From: a virus
IMG/VR virus record: IMGVR_UViG_3300021376_000163
Coordinates: 1 to 36,673 of that record
DNA: 36,673 nucleotides
Strand: one strand, 5' to 3'
Part shown: positions 8,897 through 31,597 of the stretch, one piece after another
Layout of the letters: each line of letters opens with the position of its first letter
Position numbering within the stretch: the stretch's first letter is position 1
Made by a program: the position numbers and the translations under genes
The notes under the pieces: generated by a model
What the model was told of the DNA's origin: nothing
Seen by the model: only the letters and a program-made list of their open reading frames with translations
Databases searched by the model: none

Positions 8897-9430
8897 CTAT
8901 TTAACATCCATATCCCAGGAAGTAATCATACGAAGTTTGTTTGTTTTCATGGCATCGGCATAATGTATCGTTGAACTTGGCCAAGTATACATTACACCTT
9001 CTTTGGGATTTGGAATAGAAGCAAGTTGAGTTGTATCATTTACTGGATCATTCCATGGTCCAATAAACTTAGTCGGTTCATGGACTTTATCATTATATTC
9101 AAGGTAAAGTAATCCAGTATATCCAATCGAACGATGGTTATGTGGGCAATGATTTTCGTTCCTTTTTGTATATTTTAAGGTCCAGATATCAGTCACTCTT
9201 AGGTGCTTTAGTTCTGCTTCTGTCTTAAACTGTTCTAGTTCCTCTGCAAAAATATTTTCAAAATCAAGGGCATATCTATTCTTTTTAGAATGGCGATCTG
9301 TTTGAAAAGTATTTGCTCCGTAATAATCAAATTTGTTTTGATTTATCCTAGACAATAGTGCTTTCTTTTTACGATCCCATTCATTGACTTCATAAGAAAA
9401 AAGAGGAACATAAAATAGAATATTAATCAT
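8897..9430 (-). CDS. 2OG-Fe(II) oxygenase-like protein, group 1, member 7 of the run
   Basis: The 177-residue protein ends with a double-stranded beta-helix signature: HCPHNHRSIGYTGLLYLEY (candidate first ligands in HNH), then EGVMYTWPSSTIHYADAM with the distal His, and LRMITSWD with the Arg that would hold 2-oxoglutarate. This resembles the 2OG-FeII_Oxy_5 (TIGR02466-like) pattern 'HxHxxSxxSGxxYL ... FPSxxxH ... R', with the second ligand less clear. It overlaps the next gene upstream as ATGA. Substrate unknown; a virion protein is inferred from context. It is the last gene in the run before glutaredoxin. Confidence 0.7.
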   Translation of the reverse strand: MINILFYVPLFSYEVNEWDRKKKALLSRINQNKFDYYGANTFQTDRHSKKNRYALDFENIFAEELEQFKTEAELKHLRVTDIWTLKYTKRNENHCPHNHRSIGYTGLLYLEYNDKVHEPTKFIGPWNDPVNDTTQLASIPNPKEGVMYTWPSSTIHYADAMKTNKLRMITSWDMDVK

Positions 9431-10137
9431 CTGTCATTAGCATGATGAACAAATGGTCCTTGTGCGTTTACATAATGAAGGAAGATTTGGTGATGGTAGG
9501 TGTCATCTTCTTTCTTACGGAATGTGCGCCACAGGTTTTCCAATTTACTATACTTGGATTCTAGTGGATCACGCCAGTGCTCACGCTCACATCCTTTATA
9601 GACAGCAGCATCACCATTCTTCATAAGAACATAAGACTCGCTACCATCAGGACGCTCAAACCAAATTGGCCAAGGATTGGAAGAGTTAGTGCTAATTTGA
9701 AGAGTCACACTGACTTCACACGCAGGGCGATCACTATGACGCTTCAGTTGCTGACCGACATAATAGAAACGGTCATAGAAGTAGGTAGGAAGCAAGTCAA
9801 TACCAAGACGCTTCTCTACTTCCTTACGAACAAGATAGTGAAGTTCCTTATACATTGGAACATTATATCGTGCCAGTGATCCATTTACCTGCTTCTCATC
9901 TGGGACATAAGTAAACTTATCCTTACGGATATAATTCATTTGTCCAGTAATACGATTACCATTCTCGTCCAGTGGAGGAGCACAGTAAAGATTTTCTGGG
10001 TCGGCAATGAGTCCAGGCATGAAAAGATATCCATTCTTCTCAAAGGACTCATTCTTCGTCATGTTAGTGGTGGTTTGGGTAGCACAACGCTGATACCCAT
10101 CTTCATAGACACCACCAGTTGATACAAACTCTCTCAT
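9427..10137 (-). CDS. 2OG-Fe(II) oxygenase, cyanophage type
   Basis: The start is the ATG at 10137 (MREFVSTGGVYEDGYQRC), with GGAGGT seven bases upstream; 236 residues. The iron-binding pattern is clear: QLKRHSDRPACEVSVTLQIS gives His-x-Asp (His134, Asp136), and KGCEREHWRDPL gives the distal His187. The SVTLQIS strand, the Trp-rich WPIWFERPDGS and the closing HHQIFLHYVNAQG fit a family common in T4-like cyanophages. The N-terminal FEKNGYLFMPGLIADPENLY is typical of oxygenase entry regions. Base composition is closer to the core genes than in the oxygenases at 17.9-19.7 kb, suggesting longer residence. Target unknown. Confidence 0.82.
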   Translation of the reverse strand: MREFVSTGGVYEDGYQRCATQTTTNMTKNESFEKNGYLFMPGLIADPENLYCAPPLDENGNRITGQMNYIRKDKFTYVPDEKQVNGSLARYNVPMYKELHYLVRKEVEKRLGIDLLPTYFYDRFYYVGQQLKRHSDRPACEVSVTLQISTNSSNPWPIWFERPDGSESYVLMKNGDAAVYKGCEREHWRDPLESKYSKLENLWRTFRKKEDDTYHHQIFLHYVNAQGPFVHHANDR

Positions 10138-10152
10138 AATACTTACCTCCAA

Positions 10153-10770
10153 CTATCGCCATCTCGGGCCAACCACCCAACCTACAAGACTCTTACGCAA
10201 ACCAGATTTCACCTTACGAACTCGGTGTGGAGTGCGAGAATCAAATAGCATTAGAGTTCCGCGTTGCTTTGGAGCAAAATAAGATTTACCACTATTATCA
10301 AGGAACTGAACTTCTCCACCAGTATAATCATTAGGATCGGACAGTTGAAGAGCAAAAGAAAGTTTTCTTATATACTCACCATTCAAAGTGATTTGATCTT
10401 GAGCTATATTTGTTCCAGATCCAACAACTAATTGTGGTTTATAAAAGGTGTCAAGATCACCGTCTTTGTGCCAATTATAAAACTGCCCTTCACCATATTG
10501 TGTGTACTGAACACTACCACCATCAATATCAGTCAGATCGTAGCAGAAGTTCTCACGGTTTACCTTATCAATATAATACCACAACCAACCACCGATCCAG
10601 TGCGAAGTAGGAATCCAAGCATTCTTACTATTGCGGATAACCTTATCCACTTGCGCTCCCATGATCTGGGAGTCTGCCGCAATAGAGTCGAATGTTTGAA
10701 GGTCTTTCTCTACGATTTCCACAATTTCAGTTGGCAAATTAGTCATGTGCCAACAAGTTAAAAAAGCCAT
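10153..10770 (-). CDS. prolyl 4-hydroxylase-like 2OG-Fe(II) oxygenase (PKHD type)
   Basis: This is one of the clearest oxygenases in the window (205 residues). It has YGEGQFYNWHKDGDLD with His101 and Asp103, the strand RKLSFALQLSDPNDYTGGEV, and RGTLMLFDSRTPHRVRKVKS with His182, followed by Arg192 in GLRKSLVGWVVGP. This is the classical P4Hc/PKHD arrangement of HxD...H...R/K. Enzymes of this family hydroxylate prolines or similar residues in proteins; the actual substrate is unknown. A GAGGA lies upstream of the ATG. It sits 49 bases after the halogenase-like gene. Confidence 0.88.
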   Translation of the reverse strand: MAFLTCWHMTNLPTEIVEIVEKDLQTFDSIAADSQIMGAQVDKVIRNSKNAWIPTSHWIGGWLWYYIDKVNRENFCYDLTDIDGGSVQYTQYGEGQFYNWHKDGDLDTFYKPQLVVGSGTNIAQDQITLNGEYIRKLSFALQLSDPNDYTGGEVQFLDNSGKSYFAPKQRGTLMLFDSRTPHRVRKVKSGLRKSLVGWVVGPRWR

Positions 10771-10819
10771 AATTGAATAATATTCCTCAGTCTGATTATA
10801 TATGAAAGTATCAAAGATG

Positions 10820-11326
10820 TCAAATTCTCATGTCAATAAAAACTTCTCCCCTTACCAATATTTCATCAATTTCATCCTTGACTCTAAGGTGATCGATGAT
10901 ATCTTTTTCTCTAGCAACATTGACAAGAGATTTATTAACGTGATATACCCTATCAATAATTGATTCTACATTTTCATTTGGATTCCAATGCTTATAAACC
11001 ATTTCACATCTTTGTTTGAAATAATTTACTGTCTTTTTTGTGTCCAGAACGTATGTTTCATCAGATACTTCTAGAAAATCATTTAGGGAAACAACGTTAC
11101 TTATTTCTTTATATTTGTTTTCGCACCATCTGCATCCAAGAAAAAAATCGTCCTCTGATACACCAAAAAATCTTAATCTATCAATAAATGTTTTATTAAT
11201 TTCAAAGTACGTATCAATTTCCTGATCAGAATATACAACAAATGTGCATATATTAGGAGAGATGTATTTAATTTGATAGGCAATCATCCAACAGAGTGCT
11301 GGATTTCCAAAAATAACATACTTCAT
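10820..11326 (-). CDS. tryptophan halogenase-like N-terminal fragment (degenerate or truncated)
   Basis: I choose the ATG at 11326 (MKYVIFGNPALCWMIAYQIK; 168 residues). The order of features resembles the beginning of flavin-dependent tryptophan halogenases: an initial strand and turn where those enzymes have GGGTAGW(M), here FGNPALCWM; then TFVVYSDQEID for the ESxxIxxxGVGE region; then FIDRLRFFGVSEDDFFLGCR, like the 'FLxxLGIxExDF' helix; and YVLDTKKTVNYFKQRCE. The flavin-binding glycines are gone and known halogenases are about 500 residues, so this is either an inactive remnant or a new small derived protein. The reading frame is intact. A completely different function is possible. Confidence 0.45.
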   Translation of the reverse strand: MKYVIFGNPALCWMIAYQIKYISPNICTFVVYSDQEIDTYFEINKTFIDRLRFFGVSEDDFFLGCRWCENKYKEISNVVSLNDFLEVSDETYVLDTKKTVNYFKQRCEMVYKHWNPNENVESIIDRVYHVNKSLVNVAREKDIIDHLRVKDEIDEILVRGEVFIDMRI

Positions 11327-11337
11327 AATAGAATAAT

Positions 11338-11910
11338 TTAATCGTTTGGTCTGTAAATGAACCATCCAGTTGCTACATATTTAGTTTTTGTTTTTGATAT
11401 CTGCCCGTAATGATTCCACATCCAATACGCAGGCCAAATAATTAAATTTCCTCTTTTTGCTCTTAAAGTTCTTCCTACTGTTGGAAATATAGTTCCACCA
11501 TCTTTAACATCATTTAGGTAAAACATCCATACTAAAATTCTATTAGAACTTTGTATAGAAGACGATTCGCAGTGTTTGTAGAAATAACCCTCACCCGGTT
11601 CATATTTTTGAAGATTCCAAGTAAAATCTATCACATATTCCTGAACACAATCCAATCCATTCCTATAGTATTTTTTGTCATATAATCTGGCATAATGATC
11701 GAGTTTTGGTTTGATGATAGATGATGCCCAGTCTGTTGGATCATAATAATCGAACCCACAATCTATAGACTTTTTTTTACCATTAGATATTCCACCACCT
11801 GTCCTACCAGGCATTTTTGGCAGTTTATTATTTCTCTCAAAATAATATATTAAATTTTCTGTCTCTTCCTTTGAAAGGGCATTTGGATATATTTCAATAA
11901 AATCTTTCAT
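11338..11910 (-). CDS. 2OG-Fe(II) oxygenase, P4H-like, HxE type
   Basis: The 190-residue protein has NLQKYEPGEGYFYKHCESSS with His113 and Glu115 as the HxE pair, RILVWMFYLNDVKDGGTIFP as the central strands, and GNLIIWPAYWMWNHYGQI with distal His167, followed by Lys177 in KTKYVATGWF. This is the P4H-like beta-helix order with Glu in place of Asp and Lys in place of Arg at the 2OG site. It is clearly related to the enzyme at 17922-18488, which has the same KYEPG, HxE, WMxYLND, GGT and TKYxxTGW blocks. It overlaps the next gene upstream by 17 bases. Substrate unknown; fibre proteins are suspected. Confidence 0.85.
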   Translation of the reverse strand: MKDFIEIYPNALSKEETENLIYYFERNNKLPKMPGRTGGGISNGKKKSIDCGFDYYDPTDWASSIIKPKLDHYARLYDKKYYRNGLDCVQEYVIDFTWNLQKYEPGEGYFYKHCESSSIQSSNRILVWMFYLNDVKDGGTIFPTVGRTLRAKRGNLIIWPAYWMWNHYGQISKTKTKYVATGWFIYRPND

Positions 11911-12529
11911 GCTTAAAATTTAAGTATCCAGAACTAACATTATATTCACCAGTCAGAACATAATTAAAGGCGATACAATATCTCTCTTCATCTGATTCAG
12001 ATGTTTCCACTTCATGCAAAAGATGTGAGGGAAACAAAAACAAGTCTCCTGGTTCAGGTTTTTTATACCAAGTTTTTGAATTTAAGATGTTATTATCCTT
12101 TACAAAGTTTTGAATATTTATTGTAGATGTACAATATGTAGGAATCATGGGTGGTATTGAAAATTCAACTCCTCCGCTCTTCTCGTCACACTGAAGATAC
12201 AAAATTCCACTGAACATAGAGTTCGAGTGCAAATGCTGCTGTGATTTATTGCCTTTAAGATGCTTACATGTCCAAGAACTAGTATGAGTTAGTTTTAAAA
12301 CTTCACTAACTTGAAGTTCAGTGTATATAAATTTTTTAAGTTCTTGTTCAACACATTCTCTTACTTCAAAAAAGTAAGAATTGTCAAAGATAAATTGATT
12401 TTTACTTATCCATGCCCAAGAACCCTCTTCATATTCTAATTTTTTTACATTAGCAATAGTCCTTGATAGATCTACACTCAGTTTTTCATAGTATAGAGGA
12501 ATGGAGAATAAAGGAAATACGACACTCAT
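11894..12529 (-). CDS. 2OG-Fe(II) oxygenase, 2OG-FeII_Oxy_5 (TIGR02466-like) type
   Basis: The 211-residue protein matches the 2OG-FeII_Oxy_5 layout: QQHLHSNSMFSGILYLQ (His99 and His101), then KPEPGDLFLFPSHLLHEVET (distal His172), then EERYCIAFNYV with Arg183. Between these is the SKTWYKKPEPG turn, which also occurs in the paralogue at 19107-19724 as SKTWSVHPEKN. The N-terminal FPLFSIPLYYEKL is typical of the family ('xxxFPTPVYxxxL'). It is joined to the gene upstream by ATGA. In this family the exact metal ligands are less well defined than in P4H. Confidence 0.85.
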   Translation of the reverse strand: MSVVFPLFSIPLYYEKLSVDLSRTIANVKKLEYEEGSWAWISKNQFIFDNSYFFEVRECVEQELKKFIYTELQVSEVLKLTHTSSWTCKHLKGNKSQQHLHSNSMFSGILYLQCDEKSGGVEFSIPPMIPTYCTSTINIQNFVKDNNILNSKTWYKKPEPGDLFLFPSHLLHEVETSESDEERYCIAFNYVLTGEYNVSSGYLNFKHERFY

Positions 12530-13128
12530 ACTTTGACAAAGTTAAAATTAATCACGCATCTCATCTCACCTGATGGTACACTATCATACCATTTTGTATT
12601 TGTCAATGAACTTCTTCTCTTTGGAATCTCTGCTCCATGAAGCATACTACCATCAAAAATAACACATCTTCCTTGCTTTGGTTTTACACTTTTGCCATTT
12701 TTGAATAGTGTCTTAGCATCATGATCGACAACATAATAAATCATTACAACATGTTCATCATTTTCATTGTCTTGGTGCCATGGTGTATGCCTAAACTCAA
12801 ACTTGCTTGCCTGGGGTGGTATCAGGTTTGCTTGAACTCTATCTAAAATATATCCTTCTTTGGGACCATATGCCATTAGAGGGATAATAAAATTATCTTT
12901 AATAAGATCAAAATAAGGCGATTTTATTTCACCCCTGTCAACAAATTTATGTCCAAACCAATGGATTTCTTTTGATGTAAGTGGGTTGTACTTTCTTATT
13001 TTTTCCCTTCCATCATTCTCATCAAATACTGTTCCATACTTATAGTACCAGGGAAAAGTATCTTTAAACAAAGAATTTATCACCTCTCTTTGACAGAGTG
13101 GTGGAATCATAGTATCACTGACATTCAT
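12526..13128 (-). CDS. 2OG-Fe(II) oxygenase, HxD type
   Basis: The 200-residue protein has RHTPWHQDNENDEHVVMIYY with His118 and Asp120, then QGRCVIFDGSMLHGAEIPKR with distal His164, and EMRCVINFNFV with Arg190, the expected 2OG clamp. The segment VQANLIPPQASKFEFRHTPW leads into the metal site as in phytanoyl- and prolyl-hydroxylase-like phage enzymes. It is the first gene of the group-1 run and starts six bases after the stop of the small companion gene at 13135, so it is likely read from the same late transcript as the fibre genes above it. Confidence 0.86.
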   Translation of the reverse strand: MNVSDTMIPPLCQREVINSLFKDTFPWYYKYGTVFDENDGREKIRKYNPLTSKEIHWFGHKFVDRGEIKSPYFDLIKDNFIIPLMAYGPKEGYILDRVQANLIPPQASKFEFRHTPWHQDNENDEHVVMIYYVVDHDAKTLFKNGKSVKPKQGRCVIFDGSMLHGAEIPKRRSSLTNTKWYDSVPSGEMRCVINFNFVKV

Positions 13129-13134
13129 ATTACT

Positions 13135-13506
13135 TTAGTTCGTTGCCCAGGCTAAGTTATCTTCGTCCCAATCATAGCGTATTGTGCCGCCATTTTCAAT
13201 AGCATCTGCAGGAATATTAACGGGAGCAGACCATTGATACGTTGTAGTGCTCAATATCCATGAAGGATATGGTTGAGGATCAATAAATGCATTATTTACA
13301 CTATCCCAAGTTCCACCAATAGATGGACAATTATAAAATTTATCTGCTGGATATGGAAAATTTCCTTCTAAATCATCATCAGAAACAAATCCAACAACCC
13401 ACTCTGATGGGTTTGGTAATATAGATCTCTTATCTTCCGAAGCAATAATAACATTTAGAATATTTCCAGATTCATCGATCTTAGCTAGTCTAGTTTGGTA
13501 TCCCAT
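13135..13506 (-). CDS. small fibre-companion protein (WDEDAYQADN family), shortest copy
   Basis: The ATG at 13506 has GAGGT six bases upstream. This 123-residue protein has the family plan: an N-terminal strand pair (RLAKIDESGNILNVIIASED), a middle GGTWDSVNNAF, then PQPYPSWILSTTTYQWSAPV and the end YDWDEDNLAWATN. Its C-terminal block is reduced: the AYQADNTxGWV of the other copies is missing here. Four relatives lie at 19741, 21614, 32851 and 34921, each next to a fibre gene. The role may be an adaptor, a fibre-associated virion protein or an assembly chaperone; sequence alone does not decide. Confidence 0.75.
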   Translation of the reverse strand: MGYQTRLAKIDESGNILNVIIASEDKRSILPNPSEWVVGFVSDDDLEGNFPYPADKFYNCPSIGGTWDSVNNAFIDPQPYPSWILSTTTYQWSAPVNIPADAIENGGTIRYDWDEDNLAWATN

Positions 13507-13514
13507 GTTTTACC

Positions 13515-14408
13515 TCAAGGTGTTGTGTATCGAATGTAAATTCCGCCAGATCCGCCAGAACGGTAATTGTTTCCTGCACCTCCACCACCAGATCCTGCAA
13601 CTGAAGCATTTCCATTAGGATCTGTTCCACCATCTGCCTGTCCACCTTTACCACCTCCGCCCCAGCCACCGGGCCCGCCAGGGCCGCCGAGGTTGTTTCT
13701 AACATTTCCACCTCCTCCACCTCCGGAGAAGTGTCCATAAGTTCCACTAGGACCAGGAGCACCAAAACCTGCCGGAGCCCATACCGAGGATCTATCAGAT
13801 CCATTTCCACCATTTCCACCACCATTTCCAGGAGACCCAGAGTTACCGGAACCACCACCACCACCGCTTCTTGCTGGGTTTGGTGGGAAGTAAATTGGTG
13901 AACCTGATCCACCAGGTTGTCCTTGTGGACCACCACTTCCACCACCACCAGGTGGTCCAGACCAACCAACACCTCCACCACCACCAGAAGCATTGGCAGG
14001 ATTTCCTGGAACAGTTCCATCACCACCACCGCCTCCACCATAAGCGGTGATAGGATTTGGTCCACCATCATCATATATACTAGTGCCACCGGTGTTTCCT
14101 CTGGGATTACTACCACTCCCACCAGTGCCGACAGTCATTATCAATATTCGACCAGGAGAAACTGGTGTGGCAGGAGAGTAAACATTTCCACCTGCTCCAC
14201 CGCCACCACCACTTCCACCACCACCACCACCAACTACTAAAACATCTAGAGATGTAACTGAAGAAAGGCCAGGAATTTTTAGAGAATCTGTTGTGGCAAA
14301 GTAATGGAATGTATACCCACCCACTTCGGAAACAGTTCCTCCTGTAATCTCCGCTGATCCAGAAAATAAGATTCCAAGATTGTCTGTAATATAAGTTAGA
14401 AAAGGCAT
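13515..14408 (-). CDS. Gly-rich fibre-tip-like protein
   Basis: After about 55 ordinary residues the sequence becomes extremely Gly-rich: LDVLVVGGGGGGSGGGGGAG, then runs of GGGGG separated by short polar or Pro-containing turns (GNPANASGGG, GPPGGGGSGG, GAPGPSGTYG). The chain ends GGIYIRYTTP. The form is that of the phage Gly-rich domain family, thought to pack as poly-glycine-II helices in adhesin tips. The Pro residues are often in X-Pro-Gly, which is the context preferred by collagen prolyl hydroxylases. GGAG lies before the ATG. It closely follows the 515-residue fibre gene (three bases apart). Confidence 0.82.
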   Translation of the reverse strand: MPFLTYITDNLGILFSGSAEITGGTVSEVGGYTFHYFATTDSLKIPGLSSVTSLDVLVVGGGGGGSGGGGGAGGNVYSPATPVSPGRILIMTVGTGGSGSNPRGNTGGTSIYDDGGPNPITAYGGGGGGDGTVPGNPANASGGGGGVGWSGPPGGGGSGGPQGQPGGSGSPIYFPPNPARSGGGGGSGNSGSPGNGGGNGGNGSDRSSVWAPAGFGAPGPSGTYGHFSGGGGGGNVRNNLGGPGGPGGWGGGGKGGQADGGTDPNGNASVAGSGGGGAGNNYRSGGSGGIYIRYTTP

Positions 14409-14411
14409 AGA

Positions 14412-15959
14412 TTATACTCCATAATCTCCGTTCATGTTTCCAATAACCATGTAGCTTGCGATAGCACCATCGCCAACAGTATCTATACCAACAAAGTTAA
14501 AGATATCTATCTTGTTTGCCGTTCCCGTGGGTGCTGCTGATCCTTGCCAATGAATTGTTTTTCCTGTTCCATTATAAGAAACGGCATTCACAATTCTTGC
14601 CGTAGCTTTTTGTCTAATCACAACCGAATGTGTTAGAACATGATTGGGAAGATTAGTTGGAATGTTTGTGATAGCAAGTGTTACATTACCACTAAGAGTA
14701 TGATCCGCATAAGCAACGTTTCCATTACCAGCAGCGAAATCTAGTGTAGCAGTTTCACCTGAAGTCCACTTAGTTGATTTCTGTGCCATCGAAGCAGTGG
14801 CAGTGGCAACAAAAGTAGAAATACCCGATGCTTCAACACCACCAGTAACAGTAACACCAGCACCAGTAGTTGCTAGTTTTTGAGAAGCATCATAATAAAG
14901 ACTTACAGAACCATTTGGCGTAAAGATGCCCATGGGTTCTCCGCCACTACTATGTCTTATTTCAATGGGACTTCCAGTAGCGGTATCAATAATAAATGAA
15001 CCAGATGTATTTTTATTTCTAATTAGTGAATTGTTTGTAGATGATAGATGAGTAATTACAAGATCACCACCACTCAATGCTCCTAATTGAATTTCATCAT
15101 CATCACCTAATTTTATATCATTTTGGAATGTGGCAACACCAACAACATCTAGTCCACCACCAGTGATTCTTAAACCTGCTCTTGCAGTGGCAATACCAAT
15201 TGAATCTTGGTTGGTAACGTTCTCATAAGTAAGGTCGCCAAGAACCGTTACGTTTCCACTGAAGTTAGCGGAAGAACCAGATAGAACTCCACCAACCGTA
15301 GCAGCACCAGAAACGTTAACACTGGTTGCACCAATGGTCCCAACAGTAATATTAGGAGTTCCAGAAAGACCCGTTGCGTTTCCTGTTACGTTTCCAGTTA
15401 CGTTTCCAGTAACATTACCAGTCAGAGCACCAGAAAATGTAGTGGCGGTGACGACACCAGAGGCATTAATTTGATTAATAGTAAGAACAGTGGAGTGTAA
15501 GGTATTACCACCAACCTGAACACCATCGGTGTGATGTATGGTGACTCCAGTTCCAACTTTGACTTGATTATTAGACCCATCAAGCGTGATCGAACTTGTT
15601 CCTATGGTAAGAATACCAGTGATCCTAGCATCACCAGTCACGACTAGTTGTGTTGTTCCACCACCGACGACGGTATTACCAAATGTTGAAACCCCAGAAA
15701 CATTAGCACCAGCAGCAGAAAGTGTTGCTGCCGTTAGAATTCCACTTAACTGAATTCCTGGCGAAAGAATATCAATACCAGAGGCAAAAGTTACAACACC
15801 AGCAACATAGGCACCCTGGTTAAAGTTAACTGCAGATTGGACCGTAAAATTTCCAGCACAGGTAAGAGTTTGACCTGCTCCAATGGTCATCCCTTTGCTA
15901 TAAACCGGAGCAGTACTCCCGTCTTCACTTACAATATTGTCTACTCTTAACTCAGACAT
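14412..15959 (-). CDS. modular tail-fibre protein, 515 residues
   Basis: The N-terminus MSELRVDNIVSEDGSTAPVY is the attachment-type motif shared by several fibre genes here. Repeats typical of beta-helical or trimeric fibres follow: NVTGNVTGNVTGNATG (near residue 190), 'SVNVSGAATVGG', 'GIATARAGLRITGGGLDVVG', 'VTGGVEASGISTF'. The C-terminal part (YADHTLSGNVTLAITNIPTN, then HVLTHSVVIRQKATARIVNA) resembles a terminal domain seen in marine phage fibres. A late octamer lies at 15981-15988. It shares exact-type modules with 15988-17889 and 25097-28474. Confidence 0.85.
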   Translation of the reverse strand: MSELRVDNIVSEDGSTAPVYSKGMTIGAGQTLTCAGNFTVQSAVNFNQGAYVAGVVTFASGIDILSPGIQLSGILTAATLSAAGANVSGVSTFGNTVVGGGTTQLVVTGDARITGILTIGTSSITLDGSNNQVKVGTGVTIHHTDGVQVGGNTLHSTVLTINQINASGVVTATTFSGALTGNVTGNVTGNVTGNATGLSGTPNITVGTIGATSVNVSGAATVGGVLSGSSANFSGNVTVLGDLTYENVTNQDSIGIATARAGLRITGGGLDVVGVATFQNDIKLGDDDEIQLGALSGGDLVITHLSSTNNSLIRNKNTSGSFIIDTATGSPIEIRHSSGGEPMGIFTPNGSVSLYYDASQKLATTGAGVTVTGGVEASGISTFVATATASMAQKSTKWTSGETATLDFAAGNGNVAYADHTLSGNVTLAITNIPTNLPNHVLTHSVVIRQKATARIVNAVSYNGTGKTIHWQGSAAPTGTANKIDIFNFVGIDTVGDGAIASYMVIGNMNGDYGV

Positions 15960-15980: not shown

Positions 15981-15988
15981 TATTTATT
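15981..15988 (-). promoter_or_regulatory. late promoter octamer AATAAATA
   Basis: A NATAAATA match on the minus strand, about 22 bases before the ATG at 15959 and touching the stop of the gene upstream. It probably also serves the Gly-rich gene, the companion gene and the group-1 oxygenases further on by read-through. Confidence 0.65.
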
Positions 15989-17889: not shown

Positions 17890-17905
17890 TATAGGTCTTT
17901 TTAGT

Positions 17906-17913
17906 TATTTATT
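17906..17913 (-). promoter_or_regulatory. late promoter octamer AATAAATA
   Basis: A NATAAATA match on the minus strand about 17 bases before the ATG of the 633-residue fibre gene at 17889, just after the group-2 oxygenase stop. Confidence 0.65.
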
Positions 17914-17921
17914 AGATTATA

Positions 17922-18488
17922 TTAGACCAAATCATAATTTTGATTTTGACCTGGATATAAACTACACCATCCAGTCATAATATATTTTGTTTCTGTATTT
18001 GAAACTATACCATAATGGCTATGTGTCCATCCTGCTGGCCAAATATATAAGTCCCCTTCTCTAGGAGTGGATGTAAAGTTTTGTTGTGGCCAACAAGTTC
18101 CACCATCATCGTGAATATCATTTAGATAGATCATCCAGGCAAGTATTCTTCTTTGATCTGGTTCCACATTCCCGTGCTCCATGTGCTCACCAGGATAACT
18201 ATTTCCTGGTTCATATTTTTGTATATTATAAAGACCATCTAATCCCCAAGGATAATATAACTTTTTGAGAAAAGAATATTCTTCACAATATTCAACAAAT
18301 GGTCCTTGAAGAGATTTAAAAAGAAATGAAAAAGTGTCTTTACTTATATCACCGCAAGCAAACCCAGGAACAAGAAGATAATTTCTTTTTGTTACTATTT
18401 TTTTAGATTGATCGAAATAATTAATAATAATTTCACACTGCCCTTTTGTTAAACACTTTTCCCTTTTGAAAATGAAATCTTTATTCAT
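17922..18488 (-). CDS. 2OG-Fe(II) oxygenase, P4H-like HxE type, paralogue of 11338-11910
   Basis: I choose the ATG at 18488 (MNKDFIFKREKCL), three bases after the previous stop; 188 residues. NIQKYEPGNSYPGEHMEHGN has His102 and Glu104; RRILAWMIYLNDIHDDGGTC forms the core strands; EGDLYIWPAGWTHSHYGIVS has distal His158 (or His156); and TETKYIMTGWC has Lys168. The match to 11338-11910 in every block shows that the two arose by duplication or parallel gain. It is much richer in A/T than the oxygenases near 9-10 kb. Substrate unknown. Confidence 0.84.
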   Translation of the reverse strand: MNKDFIFKREKCLTKGQCEIIINYFDQSKKIVTKRNYLLVPGFACGDISKDTFSFLFKSLQGPFVEYCEEYSFLKKLYYPWGLDGLYNIQKYEPGNSYPGEHMEHGNVEPDQRRILAWMIYLNDIHDDGGTCWPQQNFTSTPREGDLYIWPAGWTHSHYGIVSNTETKYIMTGWCSLYPGQNQNYDLV

Positions 18489-18490
18489 GA

Positions 18491-19105
18491 TTAGGCAGCA
18501 TGTAAAAACTGAGTCATACAAAATCTACCATTTTTTTTATGACATTCCTCATCATTCATTTCTATGATAGTAACGGAATGTGTTATACATGATGGAAATA
18601 TAATAGACATATTATTTTTTATTTCAACAAAAAACATATCATCTCCAAGATAAAATAATAAATCTCCACCTTTAAATTTTTTTGGTTCCTTATAGAGCCA
18701 TGTCAAGCATGTAGCCAAAGATTGATCTTTATGTTGCTTATAGTAGTCACCATTTTCATAATAAGAGATTAAAGTATTGTATGAACCAATTTCTATACTT
18801 TGAAAAAACCAAGATGGATTGCCTCTAAAAATTTTTTCTTGGACCTCAATTTCAATAATTTTTTTATTTAACTTCAATATATTTGAATACTCTCGATCAG
18901 AATAGAATTTATCCAACCATATACAATTATTTCTTTTTAAGATTTCTCCATTTTTTTTAGCTGTACCTGATTTTTCTGGAGGTAAAAAATTTTTAGGATA
19001 ACATAAAAAATTTAACTCCTCCCAAATAATAGAAAGTTCATTTTCATCATAAACATTTTCCATAGAAATATATGGAAATTCTCCATCAAAATGTTTGACT
19101 AACAT
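18491..19105 (-). CDS. 2OG-Fe(II) oxygenase, prolyl-hydroxylase-like
   Basis: The 204-residue protein has LISYYENGDYYKQHKDQSLA with His125 and Asp127, GGDLLFYLGDD as the middle strand, and NNMSIIFPSCITHSVTIIEM with distal His176, followed by Arg194 in GRFCMTQFL. This is the P4Hc (PF13640-like) pattern. The N-terminal half is Lys/Asn/Ile-rich and not distinctive. It sits between two other oxygenase genes with a gap of only one or two bases on each side. A hand count of 18541-18660, within this gene, gave 29 G/C in 120 bases, so it is AT-rich and possibly a recent arrival. Confidence 0.84.
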   Translation of the reverse strand: MLVKHFDGEFPYISMENVYDENELSIIWEELNFLCYPKNFLPPEKSGTAKKNGEILKRNNCIWLDKFYSDREYSNILKLNKKIIEIEVQEKIFRGNPSWFFQSIEIGSYNTLISYYENGDYYKQHKDQSLATCLTWLYKEPKKFKGGDLLFYLGDDMFFVEIKNNMSIIFPSCITHSVTIIEMNDEECHKKNGRFCMTQFLHAA

Positions 19106-19106
19106 A

Positions 19107-19724
19107 TTATAGAAATAAATTTATTCTAGAGTCGTCACTACCAAATTCACCAAAGGGAAAAAAATTAAAAGCAACTGAGTATCTATCTTTATTAGAGAAA
19201 TTTTTAAGTATCATATGGTCAATATGACTTGGGAATAATATAACTTTATTTTTCTCTGGATGAACACTCCATGTTTTTGAATTGAAATTATTATATTCTT
19301 TTTCTGGATTTGTAAGGATAGAATTTTTGCTGTCATTTGGATTAAAAAATAATATTGGTGATTGATCGAGATGATCTGTCAAATATAAAACTCCACTATA
19401 ATATGAATTTTTATGTGAATGCCTTTGAGAACCACAATTTGGTGGTGTTTTTGTAACCCACGATGTAGTCATTTTAAAATTGGTCGTTTCTAATCCCAAA
19501 ATATTATTTTTAAATTCTATAAACCCATTTTCAATCTGGTCTTTTATAACTTTAAATTTATCCAAAACATTATAATTTAGACTAACTTGAGATCCCGTAC
19601 CAAAAGTAGTATCTTTAAAAGAGTTTGTCTCTATTAATTTTTCATAATAACTTTGTGCATCATTATTCACAAAAAAAGTGCATAAGACAGTTGGAAAAAT
19701 TGGTGTTATTTCAAATTTGTTCAT
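19107..19724 (-). CDS. 2OG-Fe(II) oxygenase, 2OG-FeII_Oxy_5 type, paralogue of 11894-12529
   Basis: The 205-residue protein has SQRHSHKNSYYSGVLYLTDH (His102 and His104), NKVILFPSHIDHMILKNFSN (distal His170), and KDRYSVAFNFFPFGEFG with Arg181. The N-terminal FEITPIFPTVLCTFFVNN and the turn NFNSKTWSVHPEKN follow the same plan as 11894-12529. The pair probably descends from one gene. This is the first gene of the group-2 run, starting 16 bases after the companion gene stop. Product may modify the fibre encoded next to it, but nothing in the sequence names the target. Confidence 0.84.
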   Translation of the reverse strand: MNKFEITPIFPTVLCTFFVNNDAQSYYEKLIETNSFKDTTFGTGSQVSLNYNVLDKFKVIKDQIENGFIEFKNNILGLETTNFKMTTSWVTKTPPNCGSQRHSHKNSYYSGVLYLTDHLDQSPILFFNPNDSKNSILTNPEKEYNNFNSKTWSVHPEKNKVILFPSHIDHMILKNFSNKDRYSVAFNFFPFGEFGSDDSRINLFL

Positions 19725-19740
19725 AACAAAAAAATATTTT

Positions 19741-20238
19741 TTATAGACCTAAAATTTCTTTCAGTTCTTCTTTAGTTATACCCAACTCTTTTAGCTTTTC
19801 TAGTGCTGGATTTACCCGATCAATATAAACCCAACCAGTAGCATTGTCTGCTTGGTATGCTTCTTCGTCCCACTCATAACTTTTACCTGCAGGAACTTCA
19901 GTTCTTTCTACAGTTGGTGCTGCTATTGGAGGTTCCCATTCGAAGTGATCGTTTAAAATCCAAGATGGATATGGTTGTGGAGGAATAAAAGCATCCTGCG
20001 TTTCATCATAAGTATCTCCAATTCTAGCATACTTTCTGCACTGCTCTGGAGTACACTCGTCATGAACAATATTTAACACACAGGTACTAACCCATCTGCC
20101 ACCATAGTTTTCATTACAAAAGATTTCTCCATATGAAACATCAACTTGGTTGGTTTCTGGATTAGTAATACACTCATCTGTCAGAACAATTACTTGTTGA
20201 ACAATATTGTTACTATCAATTGAAGCAAAGTGATTCAT
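19741..20238 (-). CDS. fibre-companion protein (WDEDAYQADN family) with C-terminal helical tail
   Basis: The ATG at 20238 has GGAGGAG upstream. The 165-residue protein has the family plan: NHFASIDSNNIVQQVIVLTD, GEIFCNENYGGRWVST, FIPPQPYPSWILNDHFEWEP, and YEWDEEAYQADNATGWVYID. Unlike the other copies it continues for about 25 residues with a charged helix (LEKLKELGITKEELKEILGL). It follows a Gly-rich fibre gene and precedes the group-2 oxygenases. Five Cys lie in the N-terminal two-thirds, including a CxxEQC-type pair, which could bind metal or form disulphides. Function unknown. Confidence 0.78.
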   Translation of the reverse strand: MNHFASIDSNNIVQQVIVLTDECITNPETNQVDVSYGEIFCNENYGGRWVSTCVLNIVHDECTPEQCRKYARIGDTYDETQDAFIPPQPYPSWILNDHFEWEPPIAAPTVERTEVPAGKSYEWDEEAYQADNATGWVYIDRVNPALEKLKELGITKEELKEILGL

Positions 20239-20253
20239 TTTATTGCTCCTCCC

Positions 20254-21591
20254 TTAAGATTGGTATCCCGTGACTTTAATGATCATAATTCCTGGTGAAC
20301 CCGCACCTCCACCAGCACCTCCTGTTGTAGAACCATAGTGTTCAGCACCACCAGCACCTCCGCCACCACCGGCACCATATCCTTGTCCACCAGATCCACC
20401 TGGACCTGGGTTTCTTCCACCGGTGCCACTAGCAGTTCCACCAGCCGTTCCTATTATTGTATTATCTGTTGATGGTGCTAAAGGTGCTGGCAGAGCGCCG
20501 TTAGGTGCGACTATTAGACCACCACCACCACCTGATCCACCATCACCAGCAAACTGAGAATTTCCTCCAGGACCTCCAGCACCACCATTGCCATTTGATA
20601 AAGTATATGCTGGGAAATAAGGAGCAAATGGAGTAATGGTAAAAGAAGCATTCGTTCCCGGGATTCCAGCATACATGTTTGGACCAGGATTGCCAGGTCC
20701 ACCAGCATATGGACCGCCACCAGGTTGTGGTGATGGCATTGCTGGTGATGGATATGATGGAGTTGTAACTGGGAAAGAAGTTCCTGTTTGTGCTATGGTT
20801 TGACCAATTTTATAATTTAAAGATCCGCCAGCGCCCCCAGCTCCACCTTGACCACCACTATCATTACCTGGATTTCCTGGAGAACCAGAAGAACCATTAG
20901 CTCCGGTACTTAAATGAAGGATATCTACAGTAGCATCTGGACCAAAATTATAAGTTGAAGTTAAATTTGCTGTTGTTGGACTTGTATATACAAAATATTG
21001 TGTTATTTGTTGCATATTTTTTACTGTTCTCCAACCACCTGCTCCACTATATGACTCTATAGATTGAGTGTCTGAATTAAAAATCATAGAACCAATAACT
21101 GTTCCAACACCAGCATTTCTACCTGCTGTAGTTGTGGAACCTAATCCAACACCAGCGGTAGAAGAAAGGAAAGCGTTTCCAACAGTTATAGTATTTGTAT
21201 TGCCGTTTAAAGTAATTGTAGAGGTTCCTGTTGTAATAACTCCAGTAACTCTTAAATCGCCATTAACAACTAAAGATGTTGTGGCTCCACCAACAGTAAC
21301 ATTTCCAGTTGTTAAAATTCCAGTAACAACAGCACCAGAAGCTTGTGCTTGTATTTTAACATTACCATTAGAGTCTTTTAATGCTGTGGCATCAATCCCA
21401 GTTAAATTACTTCCATTACCATAAAATGCAGAGGCTGTTACAACGCCAGCAAATTGAGCATTAGTTCCACTATTAACATTCAGTTGCAATATAGTGGTAA
21501 TTCCGGCAATCTCAACACCATAAGCACCAAAAGTTATAGTGCTTAATCCACTTCTACTAGATATTGAATTTACACGAATCTCTGACGCCAT
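20254..21591 (-). CDS. fibre protein with Gly-rich, Pro-containing C-terminal domain, 445 residues
   Basis: The N-terminus MASEIRVNSISSRSGLSTIT is the shared attachment motif, followed by fibre repeats (NVTVGGATTSLVVNGDLRVT) and the connector VGLGSTTTAGRNAGVGTVIG. From about residue 230 the chain turns Gly-rich with many X-Pro-Gly turns (GSPGNPGNDSGGQGG; PGNPGPNMYAGIPG) and then GGSGGGGGL and PGPGGSGGQGYGAGG stretches. It ends SPGIMIIKVTGYQS. It is richer in Pro than most relatives, which makes it the best candidate substrate if prolyl hydroxylation occurs. A late octamer lies at 21611. Confidence 0.84.
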   Translation of the reverse strand: MASEIRVNSISSRSGLSTITFGAYGVEIAGITTILQLNVNSGTNAQFAGVVTASAFYGNGSNLTGIDATALKDSNGNVKIQAQASGAVVTGILTTGNVTVGGATTSLVVNGDLRVTGVITTGTSTITLNGNTNTITVGNAFLSSTAGVGLGSTTTAGRNAGVGTVIGSMIFNSDTQSIESYSGAGGWRTVKNMQQITQYFVYTSPTTANLTSTYNFGPDATVDILHLSTGANGSSGSPGNPGNDSGGQGGAGGAGGSLNYKIGQTIAQTGTSFPVTTPSYPSPAMPSPQPGGGPYAGGPGNPGPNMYAGIPGTNASFTITPFAPYFPAYTLSNGNGGAGGPGGNSQFAGDGGSGGGGGLIVAPNGALPAPLAPSTDNTIIGTAGGTASGTGGRNPGPGGSGGQGYGAGGGGGAGGAEHYGSTTGGAGGGAGSPGIMIIKVTGYQS

Positions 21592-21610
21592 AGTATATTG
21601 GTTTTTTAAG

Positions 21611-21618
21611 TATTTATG
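21611..21618 (-). promoter_or_regulatory. late promoter octamer CATAAATA
   Basis: Minus-strand match 20 bases before the ATG at 21591. It overlaps the stop of the companion gene at 21614. Likely to serve the fibre gene, companion gene 19741 and the group-2 oxygenases. Confidence 0.7.
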
Positions 21619-22069
21619 GAGTTACTAATACCCATCCTTGAGTATTATCTGCTTGATAAGCATCTTCATCCCAAACATAATATGGTCTCAAAGCACCTTC
21701 ACCAGGTTCTTCTGGTTTTACAATCGGTGGTTCCCATAAACCTGTTGTTGTATTAAGAGTACTCCAAGAAGGATATGGTTGTGGTGGATAAAAAATATCA
21801 TGCTCACTACTGTAGTACCATCCAATACCAGGATAGTTAGCACGAAGAGCTACACCGCCATCAGGTTCTCCAGTTTCTGGATCATAATGAACACCACCAC
21901 GAGTATTATATGAACACTTTTTCCAAGTATCATGTCCATGATGTTTTTGGAGATGTGCTAATCCAATCTCCTCTTTTTCAATACCACCTCTAGTCATACA
22001 GTCAATAGTATCGATGTAAATGACTGAGAGAACAACGTTATCTAAACCTAACTTTGCGTAAGCTGCCAT
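21614..22069 (-). CDS. fibre-companion protein (WDEDAYQADN family)
   Basis: The 151-residue protein has MAAYAKLGLDNVVLSVIYID, MTRGGIEKEEIGLAHLQKHH, GHDTWKKCSYNTRGGVHYD, NYPGIGWYYSSEHDIFYPPQ, PYPSWSTLN and the end YYVWDEDAYQADNTQGWVLV. It is close to the copy at 34921-35376 along its whole length, while its last 55 bases are identical to the end of 32851-33261, so it looks like a mosaic. A late octamer at 22100 lies upstream and the oxygenase group 3 precedes it. Role unknown; constant association with fibre genes suggests a virion component or a chaperone. Confidence 0.8.
   Translation of the reverse strand: MAAYAKLGLDNVVLSVIYIDTIDCMTRGGIEKEEIGLAHLQKHHGHDTWKKCSYNTRGGVHYDPETGEPDGGVALRANYPGIGWYYSSEHDIFYPPQPYPSWSTLNTTTGLWEPPIVKPEEPGEGALRPYYVWDEDAYQADNTQGWVLVTP
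21621..21675 (-). repeat. 55-base perfect direct repeat, copy 2 at 32858-32912
   Basis: The bases coding for the end of the companion protein (DEDAYQADNTQGWVLVT) are identical at 21621-21675 and 32858-32912, about 11.2 kb apart and in the same orientation. The genes differ over most of the rest of their length, so this is a local conversion or recombination joint. Confidence 0.9.
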
Positions 22070-22099
22070 TATTATAATATCAGCATGTACCTATCAGTA

Positions 22100-22107
22100 T
22101 ATTTATA
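22100..22107 (-). promoter_or_regulatory. late promoter octamer TATAAATA
   Basis: A perfect T4-type late octamer on the minus strand, 31 bases before the ATG at 22069, overlapping the end of the oxygenase gene upstream. Confidence 0.75.
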
Positions 22108-22633
22108 AAAAGGTGCCAACCAAAACAATTCTTCTTCCTTCAGTTGGTGGTAGATGGTAGTGCTCTCCTTCAAAGATTATAACCTCATCTTCCTTGCCAG
22201 AATAACTTTCACCACCCACAACAGTATCTCCACTGTAAGTATCAGTCAAATAAATTAAAGCATTTGTGTGGGTAAAATTATGGTCTGTATGAGGAAATCC
22301 AGGTTTTCCAGTTTTTGTGGGATGAACACAATTTGCATGTAATCTAAAAATAACTTCTGGTTTAATGTTATTAAAATTTAATATCTCAACAAATACATCC
22401 TGAACTTGGGTTAAAAAACTAGAACTTGGAAAAGAATAGTATGTTTTACCCCCATGACCACCAGGAGATCCTAAGAAACAATGGCTATAATATCCAAAAT
22501 TTTCATAAGTATCGTCACTTATTGGATTAGTTACACTAGAATCCATCCAATGCCATGGAAAGTTAAAACTAAGAACAGACTCTTTTAGTTCTTTATAGTT
22601 GGATGTTTTAGGATTAAAAAGTTTACTTATCAT
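22103..22633 (-). CDS. 2OG-Fe(II) oxygenase, small HxD type
   Basis: The 176-residue protein has PTKTGKPGFPHTDHNFTHTN with His115 and Asp117, GDTVVGGESYSGKEDEVIIF as central strands, and FEGEHYHLPPTEGRRIVLVG with distal His160 (or His158) and Arg167 or Arg168. This is the compact form of the beta-helix fold with a short N-terminus. It overlaps the next gene upstream by 11 bases. The N-terminal half contains FPWHWMDSSVTNP, which looks like an oxygenase entry region but has no known meaning. Target unknown. Confidence 0.82.
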   Translation of the reverse strand: MISKLFNPKTSNYKELKESVLSFNFPWHWMDSSVTNPISDDTYENFGYYSHCFLGSPGGHGGKTYYSFPSSSFLTQVQDVFVEILNFNNIKPEVIFRLHANCVHPTKTGKPGFPHTDHNFTHTNALIYLTDTYSGDTVVGGESYSGKEDEVIIFEGEHYHLPPTEGRRIVLVGTFL

Positions 22634-23243
22634 ATAAAAATGTATAACTAACTCTACAATTTTTTATTCCTGGTTTCATTTCGACATCACAAGTTTCGTG
22701 GAAAGAATCTCCCATAAAAATTATGGCTCTGTTGAACTTATATGGTATTATATCATACTTTGATTTTTTTAAATATTCTCTTACCTTTTCCATAGACCAA
22801 CCCTTCTCATCACTACTATAGTTTTCCCAAGGTCCCTTTGGTCTTTTTTTCTTATATAAGATCAACCCATTCTTATCTTTATTGCCAACACAATCATCTG
22901 GTGTTACCCAAACATTCACTGTAAAATGTGAAGGGTCTGTATGTGGTCCAACACCTGTTCCAAAAGTATTAAATCTAAGACTCCATGCTCTAGAATAATA
23001 TTGTTCTTTTAAAAAAGAAACTCTAGGAACAACAAAGTTGTTAGATATTTCTTTAAGGGACCAATCATCAGGTTTGAGATCAAAGTTTATTGCCTGATAG
23101 TTACTCCATGTTTTTACAGATGAAGATTCGCTTGGAAACTGTAATGTTATATTTCTAAGTTTTTCGCAAAGATCCTTTGGAAAAAAGTTATCAACTACCA
23201 AATATCCTTTAGTTTTTATTTTTACTAAATCCAACCACTTCAT
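22623..23243 (-). CDS. 2OG-Fe(II) oxygenase, HxD type
   Basis: The 206-residue protein has FGTGVGPHTDPSHFTVNVWV with His101 and Asp103, GLILYKKKRPKGPW as the middle strand, and NRAIIFMGDSFHETCDVEMK with distal His182, then Arg197 in NCRVSYTFLY. The N-terminus GYLVVDNFFPKDLCEKLRNI is the typical start of prolyl-hydroxylase-like proteins ('xxxVxDxFxPxxxCxxL'). The middle (WVTPDDCVGNKDKNG and the Ser/Asp-rich EKGWSMEK) resembles phage oxygenases in which an extra loop follows the metal site. It lies two bases after the gene upstream. Confidence 0.84.
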   Translation of the reverse strand: MKWLDLVKIKTKGYLVVDNFFPKDLCEKLRNITLQFPSESSSVKTWSNYQAINFDLKPDDWSLKEISNNFVVPRVSFLKEQYYSRAWSLRFNTFGTGVGPHTDPSHFTVNVWVTPDDCVGNKDKNGLILYKKKRPKGPWENYSSDEKGWSMEKVREYLKKSKYDIIPYKFNRAIIFMGDSFHETCDVEMKPGIKNCRVSYTFLYDK

Positions 23244-23244
23244 T

Positions 23245-23766
23245 TTAAATGGGTATCAAAGAAAGAATTTTATCTGGGGTATTTTTTGGTTGAACACAAA
23301 CATAAAAACCTAATGTTATTCTTGGATTATTATAATTTTGTTCAACAACTACCTTATGTTTTCTATTACCAGGTCCAATATAGATATTTCCAACCTCGTT
23401 TTCAATTTCATATTCTTCAAACACAGTTTTTGTTTTCTTGGGATCTATACAAATGTATCCATGATAGTCCCAATGATGATCATGCCAGTCCAAAACTTGA
23501 TCTGGTCTGTGGTAGTTTAACCAGCACTGCATCCACTTATTTTCTTCCGGAACATAATCGTAAATAATATTTTTCAACTCAAAGAATAATTTACTAAAAA
23601 GTAAACTTGGAGAAGTTAATCCAAAAAAATTATATCCTTTATAAGTCCAAGTAGAATCATTTCCAGGAAAATATATTTGGTGAACAGAGTGGGCTCGATG
23701 TATCTGTTCCAGCATTTCATCCTTATTATCAATAATAAGTTGAGATTTATAAATTTTATAATCCAT
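23245..23766 (-). CDS. 2OG-Fe(II) oxygenase-like, His-rich active site
   Basis: The 173-residue protein has a striking cluster QVLDWHDHHWDYHGYICIDP (His95, His97, His98, His102), followed by VGNIYIGPGNRKHKVVVEQN (distal His137) and PRITLGFYVCVQP (Arg149). The layout H-x-H ... H ... R suggests a 2OG oxygenase in which His replaces the usual acidic ligand; a cupin-like metal protein is the alternative. The LNYHRPDQVLDWHDH segment recalls oxygenase-like proteins of cyanophages. It is the first gene of group 3, 29 bases after the Gly-rich fibre gene at 23796. No clear promoter lies in between. Confidence 0.75.
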   Translation of the reverse strand: MDYKIYKSQLIIDNKDEMLEQIHRAHSVHQIYFPGNDSTWTYKGYNFFGLTSPSLLFSKLFFELKNIIYDYVPEENKWMQCWLNYHRPDQVLDWHDHHWDYHGYICIDPKKTKTVFEEYEIENEVGNIYIGPGNRKHKVVVEQNYNNPRITLGFYVCVQPKNTPDKILSLIPI

Positions 23767-31585: not shown

Positions 31586-31597
31586 AGTCAAACCTCC

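Follow-up and report, generated by a model that had tools for sequence, protein, structure and literature searches.

Twelve putative 2-oxoglutarate oxygenase genes interleaved with tail-fibre genes in a marine cyanophage fragment

Oxygenase-type genes lie between fibre genes

We analysed the entire virus record IMGVR_UViG_3300021376_000163 of IMG/VR (36,673 bases; hereafter, the window), a marine cyanophage fragment carrying twelve genes for putative 2-oxoglutarate (2OG)-Fe(II) oxygenases, here termed O1 to O12. An initial annotation, made from the sequence alone, had described these open reading frames (ORFs) as three groups (O1 to O6, O7 to O9, and O10 to O12) inserted between fibre genes. 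All twelve are present, every one on the minus strand, and the interleaving was confirmed by fibre-like genes at 13515, 14412, 15988, 23796 and 25097, plus one at 20254 recognised by composition only. According to PHROG matches, the left part of the window encodes homologues of single-stranded DNA-binding protein, helicase loader, exonuclease, PhoH and thymidylate synthase, and fibre genes follow one another over a long stretch on the right. Matches of window proteins are mostly to Synechococcus and Prochlorococcus phages (Kyanoviridae where the record gives a family), and megablast of the region against phages returned zero matches.

With all discussed genes on the minus strand, transcription runs from high to low coordinates. 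In this reading order, a glycine-rich fibre gene (23796) is followed by O12 to O10, a phrog_7759 gene (21614) and a glycine-rich fibre-like gene (20254); then come a phrog_7759 gene (19741), O9 to O7 and three fibre genes (15988, 14412 and the glycine-rich 13515); and finally a phrog_7759 gene (13135), O6 to O4, an orphan ORF (10820), and O3 to O1. Gaps between neighbours range from -31 to +49 bases, a tight spacing that suggests a block resembling a coupled operon. The features are as follows, in reading order.

25097..28474, minus: 1125-aa tail fibre with a collagen-like run (PHROG match and composition)
23796..25067, minus: glycine-rich fibre-like protein, 29% Gly (phrog_2295, 1.4e-42)
23245..23766, minus: O12, phrog_2696, HxH, PF13759-like fold (phrog_2696, 1.2e-50, and model)
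22623..23243, minus: O11, phrog_1644-type putative oxygenase ('minor coat protein' in PHROGs), HTD...H...R (phrog_1644, 3.2e-12; phrog_274, 3.4e-4)
22103..22633, minus: O10, plausible phrog_274-type oxygenase ('DNA endonuclease V' in PHROGs), HTD, H158, R168 (phrog_274, 3.6e-26)
21614..22069, minus: phrog_7759 small protein (1.1e-29)
20254..21591, minus: glycine-rich fibre-like protein, 22% Gly overall (composition only; PHROG search without match)
19741..20238, minus: phrog_7759 small protein (2.3e-30)
19107..19724, minus: O9, PF13759 oxygenase, HxH (PF13759, 62.9 bits)
18491..19105, minus: O8, PF13640 oxygenase, HxD 125-127 (PF13640, 27.6 bits, cut-off 27; phrog_61, 2.4e-20)
17922..18521, minus: O7, PF13640 oxygenase, HxE, Lys (PF13640, 32.9 bits; phrog_61, 3.2e-31)
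15988..17889, minus: tail-fibre / baseplate-wedge-initiator-like protein (phrog_8215, 1.6e-27)
14412..15959, minus: tail-fibre protein (phrog_30742, 1.5e-18)
13515..14408, minus: glycine-rich fibre-like protein, 35% Gly (phrog_2295, 1.8e-22)
13135..13506, minus: phrog_7759 small protein, after the glycine-rich fibre gene (4.5e-14)
12526..13128, minus: O6, PF13640-like oxygenase, HxD (23.9 bits, cut-off 27; phrog_274, 5.1e-28)
11894..12529, minus: O5, PF13759 oxygenase, HxH (PF13759, 77.8 bits)
11338..11910, minus: O4, PF13640 oxygenase, HxE, Lys replacing Arg (PF13640, 35.4 bits)
10820..11365, minus: orphan ORF within the first group (no Pfam, PHROG or phage tblastn match)
10153..10770, minus: O3, PF13640 oxygenase, partner of 9427 (PF13640, 50 bits; phrog_61, 8.5e-36)
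9427..10152, minus: O2, phrog_2954, predicted prolyl-hydroxylase-like 2OG oxygenase fold, partner of 10153 (phrog_2954, 8.9e-57, and model)
8897..9430, minus: O1, PF13759-type oxygenase, HxH 97-99, distal H156, R167 (PF13759, 26.5 bits, cut-off 27; phrog_81, 7e-23)

Assignment to the 2OG-Fe(II) oxygenases

Profile searches, one of the checks suggested with the initial annotation, bore out its family assignment in part. Six of the twelve proteins exceeded the Pfam cut-off for PF13640 or PF13759, five of them clearly (10153, 11338, 11894, 17922 and 19107) and one narrowly (18491, by 0.6 bit), and two fell just below it (8897, 26.5 against 27 bits; 12526, 23.9 against 27). For the remaining four, Pfam gave nothing significant: no match for 9427, no 2OG family for 22103, PF13759 at E = 0.15 for 23245 and PF13640 at E = 0.083 for 22623. 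AlphaFold2 models were built for two of the twelve, 9427 and 23245, and both show a double-stranded beta-helix of the 2OG-oxygenase type. The O12 model (11-sequence alignment; predicted local distance difference test score, pLDDT, 86.7, the set of five models spanning 69 to 87) aligned in VIA-align with 3bvc (Z 16.1) and 2rg4 (Z 15.8), two solved PF13759-type proteins that also match 11894 by sequence. Foldseek ranked 2OG enzymes and cupins alongside each other for this model, and the fold searches on both O2 and O12 speak for the matches listed, leaving room for families beyond them.

For 22103 and 22623, the support consists of PHROG profiles and conserved motifs: HxD, the distal His and Arg are retained in most aligned relatives, and in 22623, the weakest case of the twelve, the triad and Arg are kept in two relatives. 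Several further searches were negative or marginal. Profile-profile comparison with the O3 alignment gave no support (probabilities of 0.55% for O11, 0.82% for O10 and 1.3% for O2), although the O2/O3 alignment nonetheless paired their HxD motifs; O11 showed no similarity to the 'minor coat protein' gp46 of Syn9; and Pfam searches found no 2OG family in four O10 relatives or in the single O11 relative, PF13759 at 0.009 in one of two O12 relatives, and PF13532 at 8e-4 and 1.5e-3 in two of three O2 relatives. Scans of viral contigs returned five relatives of O9, two of O10 and zero of O11. Overall, membership in the 2OG-type oxygenases is well supported for ten of the twelve genes and plausible for 22103 and 22623. 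Because the places matched by phrog_274 in cyanophage genomes coincide in many cases with those of phrog_61, the PHROG name of phrog_274, 'DNA endonuclease V', looks wrong; the PHROG names 'DNA endonuclease V' (phrog_274), 'minor coat protein' (phrog_1644) and 'ferrochelatase' (phrog_2954) all cover oxygenase-like proteins.

The initial annotation had also read, in each protein, an HxD, HxE or HxH pair, a distal His and a downstream Arg or Lys. The pair and the distal His are indeed present in 12/12, and the downstream Arg or Lys in 11/12, the exception being 9427; for nine of these eleven (O1, O3, O4, O5, O6, O9, O10, O11 and O12) the Arg or Lys is conserved among relatives, and in 17922 and 18491 it was read from one sequence each. 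HxD/E...H occurs in 8/12 proteins. In the other four, HxH...H takes its place and is conserved in relatives (8897, 22/22 with the window included; 11894, 25/26; 19107, 5/5; 23245, 11/11), and in each case the distal His is followed by an Arg or Lys; the sequences of 2rg4 and 3bvc have HxH as well. More specifically, the downstream Arg of O1 is conserved in 21/22 sequences, the Lys of O4 in 7/7, the triad and Arg of O6 in 8/8, the H, D, H and R of O3 in 37/37, and the H, D and H of O2 in 37/37. The 2OG-binding Arg or Lys usually lies about 10 residues after the distal His. O2 is without an invariant Arg or Lys at this distance, has an invariant Arg at distal His +2, and carries a Gln as near-invariant last-strand residue (33-sequence alignment).

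The phrog_2954 protein named 'ferrochelatase' is predicted to be an oxygenase

The family of O2, phrog_2954, is labelled 'ferrochelatase' in PHROGs, in RefSeq phage records and in two papers. PF00762 was found neither in O2, in six named relatives and in the fusion protein of phage S-SCSM2R (see below), nor, at E-values up to 1, in any of 22 phage genomes (0/22), 17 of which carry phrog_2954 (14/19 plus 3/3); among positive-control genomes, 10/14 matched, 8 of them above the cut-off. For none of the six named phrog_2954 proteins did Pfam return any family. The O2 model (33-sequence alignment) reached a mean pLDDT of 92.4 and a predicted template-modelling score of 0.89, and its top PDB match in Foldseek was the Pseudomonas putida prolyl-4-hydroxylase (P4H; 4iw3) solved with EF-Tu (E = 1.2e-7; TM 0.52/0.60), with AlkB chains a close second. 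VIA-align placed human PHD2 first (Z 14.6; 166 residues, 2.8 Å), with many 2OG enzymes tied. When used as a profile against PDB sequences, the O2 alignment hit no 2OG enzyme and gave one match, at E = 0.2. Based on the model, we predict that O2 is a prolyl-hydroxylase-like 2OG oxygenase; because PF00762 is absent and the predicted fold is prolyl-hydroxylase-like, the name 'ferrochelatase' is very likely wrong for phrog_2954.

Papers are cited here by PMC number, from the parts of their text that were available. Sullivan et al. (2010) list a 'hypothetical with ferrochelatase domain' (PMC3037559), and a seasonal time series in ISME J (2024) presents the phrog_2954 'ferrochelatase' as a headline auxiliary metabolic gene (PMC11561400). 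Authors working on pelagiphages reported that the 'ferrochelatase' always stands beside a 2OG oxygenase, and discussed haem and iron while taking the partner as a true ferrochelatase (PMC9599517). The GenBank record of S-MS29 lists both names under its O2 match. In the literature searched, which mostly lies outside subscription journals and was accessible in part, there was no statement calling a phrog_2954 protein an oxygenase. The re-reading of phrog_2954 as an oxygenase is new here, and the oxygenase count itself is not.

O3 and O2 form a conserved pair that is fused in three phages

A single O2-based scan yielded 58 IMG/VR loci; with the window included, 58 O2 homologues longer than 150 aa formed 27 sequence clusters, one without an upstream ORF and three more with fewer than three. 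O3 lies directly upstream of O2 in 24/26 locus clusters having an upstream ORF, the loci having been found through O2. A fibre-like ORF, defined by a Gly content of 20% or more over 120 aa, or by phmmer similarity to a window fibre, occurs no more than six ORFs upstream in 21/24 clusters with at least three upstream ORFs.

In three complete cyanophage genomes, phrog_2954 and phrog_61 share one frame and one annotated coding sequence, and the C-terminal part of all three fusion proteins matches PF13640 (Pfam): S-SCSM2R, 427 aa; S-SCSM1, 453 aa (ORF 248); and ACG-2014f, 362 aa. These fusions support the idea that the two domains may act jointly. When the O3 profile was compared with PDB sequences, PKHD-type hydroxylases ranked first (2.2e-10), and 5c5t, the collagen prolyl hydroxylase of PBCV-1, matched at 1.3e-6; the O3 match in S-SM2 is T4-GC 412. 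Genomes with a strong match to the glycine-rich fibre family phrog_2295 have O3 and O2 as a separate adjacent pair in 7/7 cases, against 1/12 otherwise (Fisher 1.6e-4, or 0.013 with the three fusions counted as pairs; kinship ignored). Likewise, the pelagiphages HTVC008M and HTVC023P carry the same module near tail and glycine-rich genes. As a side observation, phrog_3531 (362 positions) looks like the fused two-domain form: its first half is matched by O2, and its end by O3, O4 and O7.

Oxygenase genes are linked to glycine-rich fibre genes in complete genomes

The initial annotation set a dozen such genes against the single or few 2OG oxygenases known in T4-like cyanophages. This view is out of date, as 24 have been published for S-SCSM1 (PMC9602691) and Syn9 has a run of them after its fibre genes; within the group, a dozen is nothing exceptional. 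Across 19 complete cyanophage genomes, we counted between 0 and 23 2OG places per genome in four families, with such places present in 18/19. The 218 places found in total are a minimum, as we left out rows of phrog_61 weaker than 1e-6, rows of phrog_81 or phrog_274 that overlapped a kept place, and several weak stand-alone rows (some between 1e-7 and 1e-3).

As anchors we took matches to phrog_2295, leaving out rows weaker than about 1e-6; S-PM2, with one weak match, is thus unanchored, and the anchored set comprises 10 of the 11 genomes with a match. The fibre family phrog_8745 matched only 6/19 genomes and was not used as anchor. In the ten anchored genomes, 35/125 2OG places lie within 5 kb of a phrog_2295 fibre, compared with a mean of 8.3 under a rotation null (0/5000 rotations as high), and 56/125 lie within 10 kb, compared with 15.0; these pooled figures come from related genomes, ignore kinship, and therefore contain counts that are not independent. 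For psbA, psbD and talC in the same genomes, 0/28 fell within 10 kb of the fibre, the nearest being 38 kb away; as psbA/psbD and talC form one block, these represent about ten observations rather than 28.

The glycine-rich regions themselves were also considered. Pro-Gly exceeds Gly-Pro in 57/74 of them and is rarer in 7, a comparison made without a control set from enzyme-free phages and no more than compatible with hydroxylation of peptidyl proline. A preference for Pro-Gly was dropped as an argument, as Gly-Pro is depleted (212 versus 345 expected) more than Pro-Gly is enriched (365 versus 344).

Proposed role in fibre modification and alternatives

We propose, with a probability of about 0.5, that the twelve oxygenases hydroxylate the phage's own fibre and other virion proteins, with the pair 10153 and 9427 as core. 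The genes would encode small Fe(II)-dependent oxygenases, mostly using 2OG, that are probably made late, together with the fibre proteins and from the same closely packed gene block. In the infected cell, their targets would be side chains (Pro, Asn, Lys or others) of tail-fibre and other virion proteins, hydroxylated between synthesis and assembly; the enzymes would not remain in the particle. The conserved core would work as one two-part enzyme, most often on glycine-rich fibres, and the other ten oxygenases would vary by lineage along with the fibre set; the benefit may be fibre stability or altered receptor binding. More tentatively, and with slightly less than even odds in our estimation, marine T4-like and podovirus phages may carry a conserved two-enzyme fibre hydroxylase (PF13640 plus 'ferrochelatase') that acts post-translationally on glycine-rich tail fibres, in some phages as a single fused chain, and to which lineages add further oxygenases, and sometimes FAD halogenases, matched to their fibres.

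Consistent with absence from the particle, the available text on the S-SCSM1 virion proteome (45 proteins) names no oxygenase, and none is among the three virion proteins named there as unlikely to be structural (PMC9602691). In the S-SCSM1 record, the seven 2OG genes at 196-228.8 kb lack the 'virion protein' note that neighbouring fibre genes have.

Beyond position in one window, the dedicated virion-modifying system suggested by the initial annotation draws partial support from the conserved pair, its fusion in three phages, its recurrence beside glycine-rich fibres and the contrast with psbA/psbD/talC. Other observations weigh against it. Of the 2OG places, 90/125 lie more than 5 kb from glycine-rich fibres; taken genome by genome, the 5-kb probabilities span no better than 0.04 to 1, and the kinship of the genomes tempers the pooled figures. 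P-SSM2 and Syn9 have 0/23 and 0/12 places within 5 kb, the Syn9 block beginning just beyond, and 8/19 genomes, most of them rich in 2OG genes, are without any phrog_2295 match. All three fusion phages belong to these, and two of their fusions have other company: that of S-SCSM2R sits beside glycosyltransferases, and that of ACG-2014f between NAD synthetase and a hypothetical gene preceding a CpeT-like gene. In S-SM2, the fibre before the pair has 13% Gly and is not glycine-rich, and S-PM2 and S-RIM32 carry their phrog_2954 gene at a separate site, behind a helicase; other 2OG genes of these two phages follow the short-tail-fibre gene. The nine 2OG genes of S-SZBM1 have been described as scattered (PMC9146016), and 13 of the 45 S-SCSM1 virion proteins were called unknown (PMC9602691). 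Finally, the collagen-like GXX run of fibre 25097 (25 triplets from residue 968 on, mostly GXQ) contains zero proline, so collagen-type prolyl hydroxylation cannot act there.

Among the alternatives, the oxygenases could target host proteins, as P. putida P4H does EF-Tu, and reprogramme translation, with the fibre location only giving late expression. The best Foldseek match of O2 is that enzyme, solved with its substrate, and the majority of 2OG places far from anchor fibres would fit; however, a shared fold does not reveal a substrate, VIA-align puts PHD2 first, and the pair keeps to fibre or tail genes across distant phages, so that we regard this explanation as unlikely. A role on sugars or glycan-bearing products of the virion or host surface, alongside phage glycosyltransferases, appears slightly less probable still. 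It draws on S-SCSM2R, where glycosyltransferases, a DegT-type synthase and an amidinotransferase come after the fusion, and on glycosyltransferases ~6 kb after the pair in HTVC023P and ~8 kb after the fusion in ACG-2014f. Against this, none is annotated in the regions shown of Bellamy, S-SM2 and S-SSM5, and no glycosyltransferase is among the PHROG matches listed for 40 window proteins (one list giving the best 25 of 42 families), the window being a short fragment whose full genome may have some.

That the enzymes drain or sense 2OG, or repair DNA, in the service of host nitrogen metabolism or genome repair, has been proposed previously (PMC3037559, PMC9146016), and we consider it improbable here: it would leave unexplained the pair, its fusion, the fibre linkage and the presence of as many as 23 divergent places in one genome, and the S-SZBM1 genes are not between uvsY and uvsW (PMC9146016). 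Least probable in our view is that the fibre region is a recombination hot spot that collects mobile genes, proximity being functionally meaningless. The gene content between fibres does vary strongly among relatives, and nblA and a helicase gene also lie between virion genes in S-SCSM1; yet psbA/psbD/talC, the only such genes tested, form one block and never come within 10 kb of the fibres, the O3-O2 order is nearly fixed, and the catalytic residues are invariant.

Comparison with known systems

The locus is a large instance of an arrangement that recurs in cyanophages. Phage S-SCSM1 (MK867354) likewise has many divergent 2OG genes (24 as published, 22 places in our four-family count), with ORFs 240-243 between virion/fibre genes 236 and 244, but its O2 and O3 are fused as ORF 248, it is without a phrog_2295 match, and its authors proposed host reprogramming (PMC9602691). 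At 33-45 kb of Syn9 (NC_008296), a 2OG-type run with the names 'ferrochelatase', 'DNA endonuclease V' and 'minor coat' follows fibre and fibre-assembly genes; it differs in being a single block with no interleaving, preceded by two tryptophan halogenases and containing a JmjC-type protein. Bellamy (NC_047838), S-SM2 (NC_015279) and S-SSM5 (NC_015289) have O3 then O2 in or just after the fibre genes, with more 2OG neighbours, although these regions hold fewer 2OG places (5, 4 and 6, respectively). The 2OG genes of HTVC008M and HTVC023P adjoin the 'ferrochelatase' near tail and glycine-rich genes, in phages of other hosts, the HTVC023P type being a podovirus (PMC9599517).

Beyond these phages, P4H (4iw3) and PHD2 resemble the modelled O2 in fold at about 10-16% identity, and their substrates are EF-Tu and HIF. 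The PBCV-1 enzyme (5c5t) is a viral 2OG hydroxylase matched by the O3 profile, but from an algal virus; O3 is closer to PKHD-type enzymes, and the collagen-like run here is proline-free. Sullivan et al. listed as many as five 2OG genes in a genome, with a 2OG/nitrogen model (PMC3037559); according to the Phold paper, 2OG proteins of marine phages have conserved metal ligands and folds resembling EGLN3 (PMC12774648). In a Baltic study, prolyl hydroxylase is mentioned along with collagen in viral tail fibres, and its use is called cryptic (PMC9301287); fibre hydroxylation is therefore not a wholly new idea.

Although 2OG oxygenases are many-copy genes in cyanophages, no study up to 2022 had specifically addressed what they do for the virus (PMC9602691), and they are filed as metabolic genes. 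If the phrog_2954 protein is an oxygenase that acts on fibres with its neighbour, the readings of the time series and of iron and haem would change. We consider this re-reading and the pair the more interesting product, since virion proteomics could test them specifically. If fibres were modified in an oxygen-dependent reaction, the infectivity of the phage would also be coupled to O2, iron and 2OG, and lineage-matched oxygenases would offer a chemical route to fibre diversity.

Halogenases, the orphan ORF and other neighbours

Tryptophan halogenase genes occur near 2OG genes in Syn9 (locus L104, 14966-18071), HTVC008M (locus L105, 17764-19158) and S-WAM1 (31495-32742); in HTVC008M, a 2OG-PrnA pair lies between terminase genes. 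PF04820 matches were found in 9/19 cyanophages, some away from 2OG genes. Inside the Syn9 2OG run, gp49 (L104, 21598-22308) has a JmjC_2 domain (1.3e-16).

Searches with orphan ORF 10820 in Pfam, PHROGs and phage tblastn gave no match, and its single further copy among the fetched loci is identical and lies in the near-identical locus L010. Its N-terminus, together with the halogenases near the Syn9 2OG genes, raised the idea of a decayed tryptophan halogenase; this was rejected, with no PF04820 or other Pfam match, a BLASTP result that was not significant and an hhalign E-value of 0.2.

Five phrog_7759 small proteins (13135, 19741, 21614, 32851 and 34921) sit among glycine-rich fibre genes of the window and may be fibre partners or assembly factors. 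An HNH endonuclease gene (5022-5534; PHROG match) adjoins the thymidylate synthase gene.

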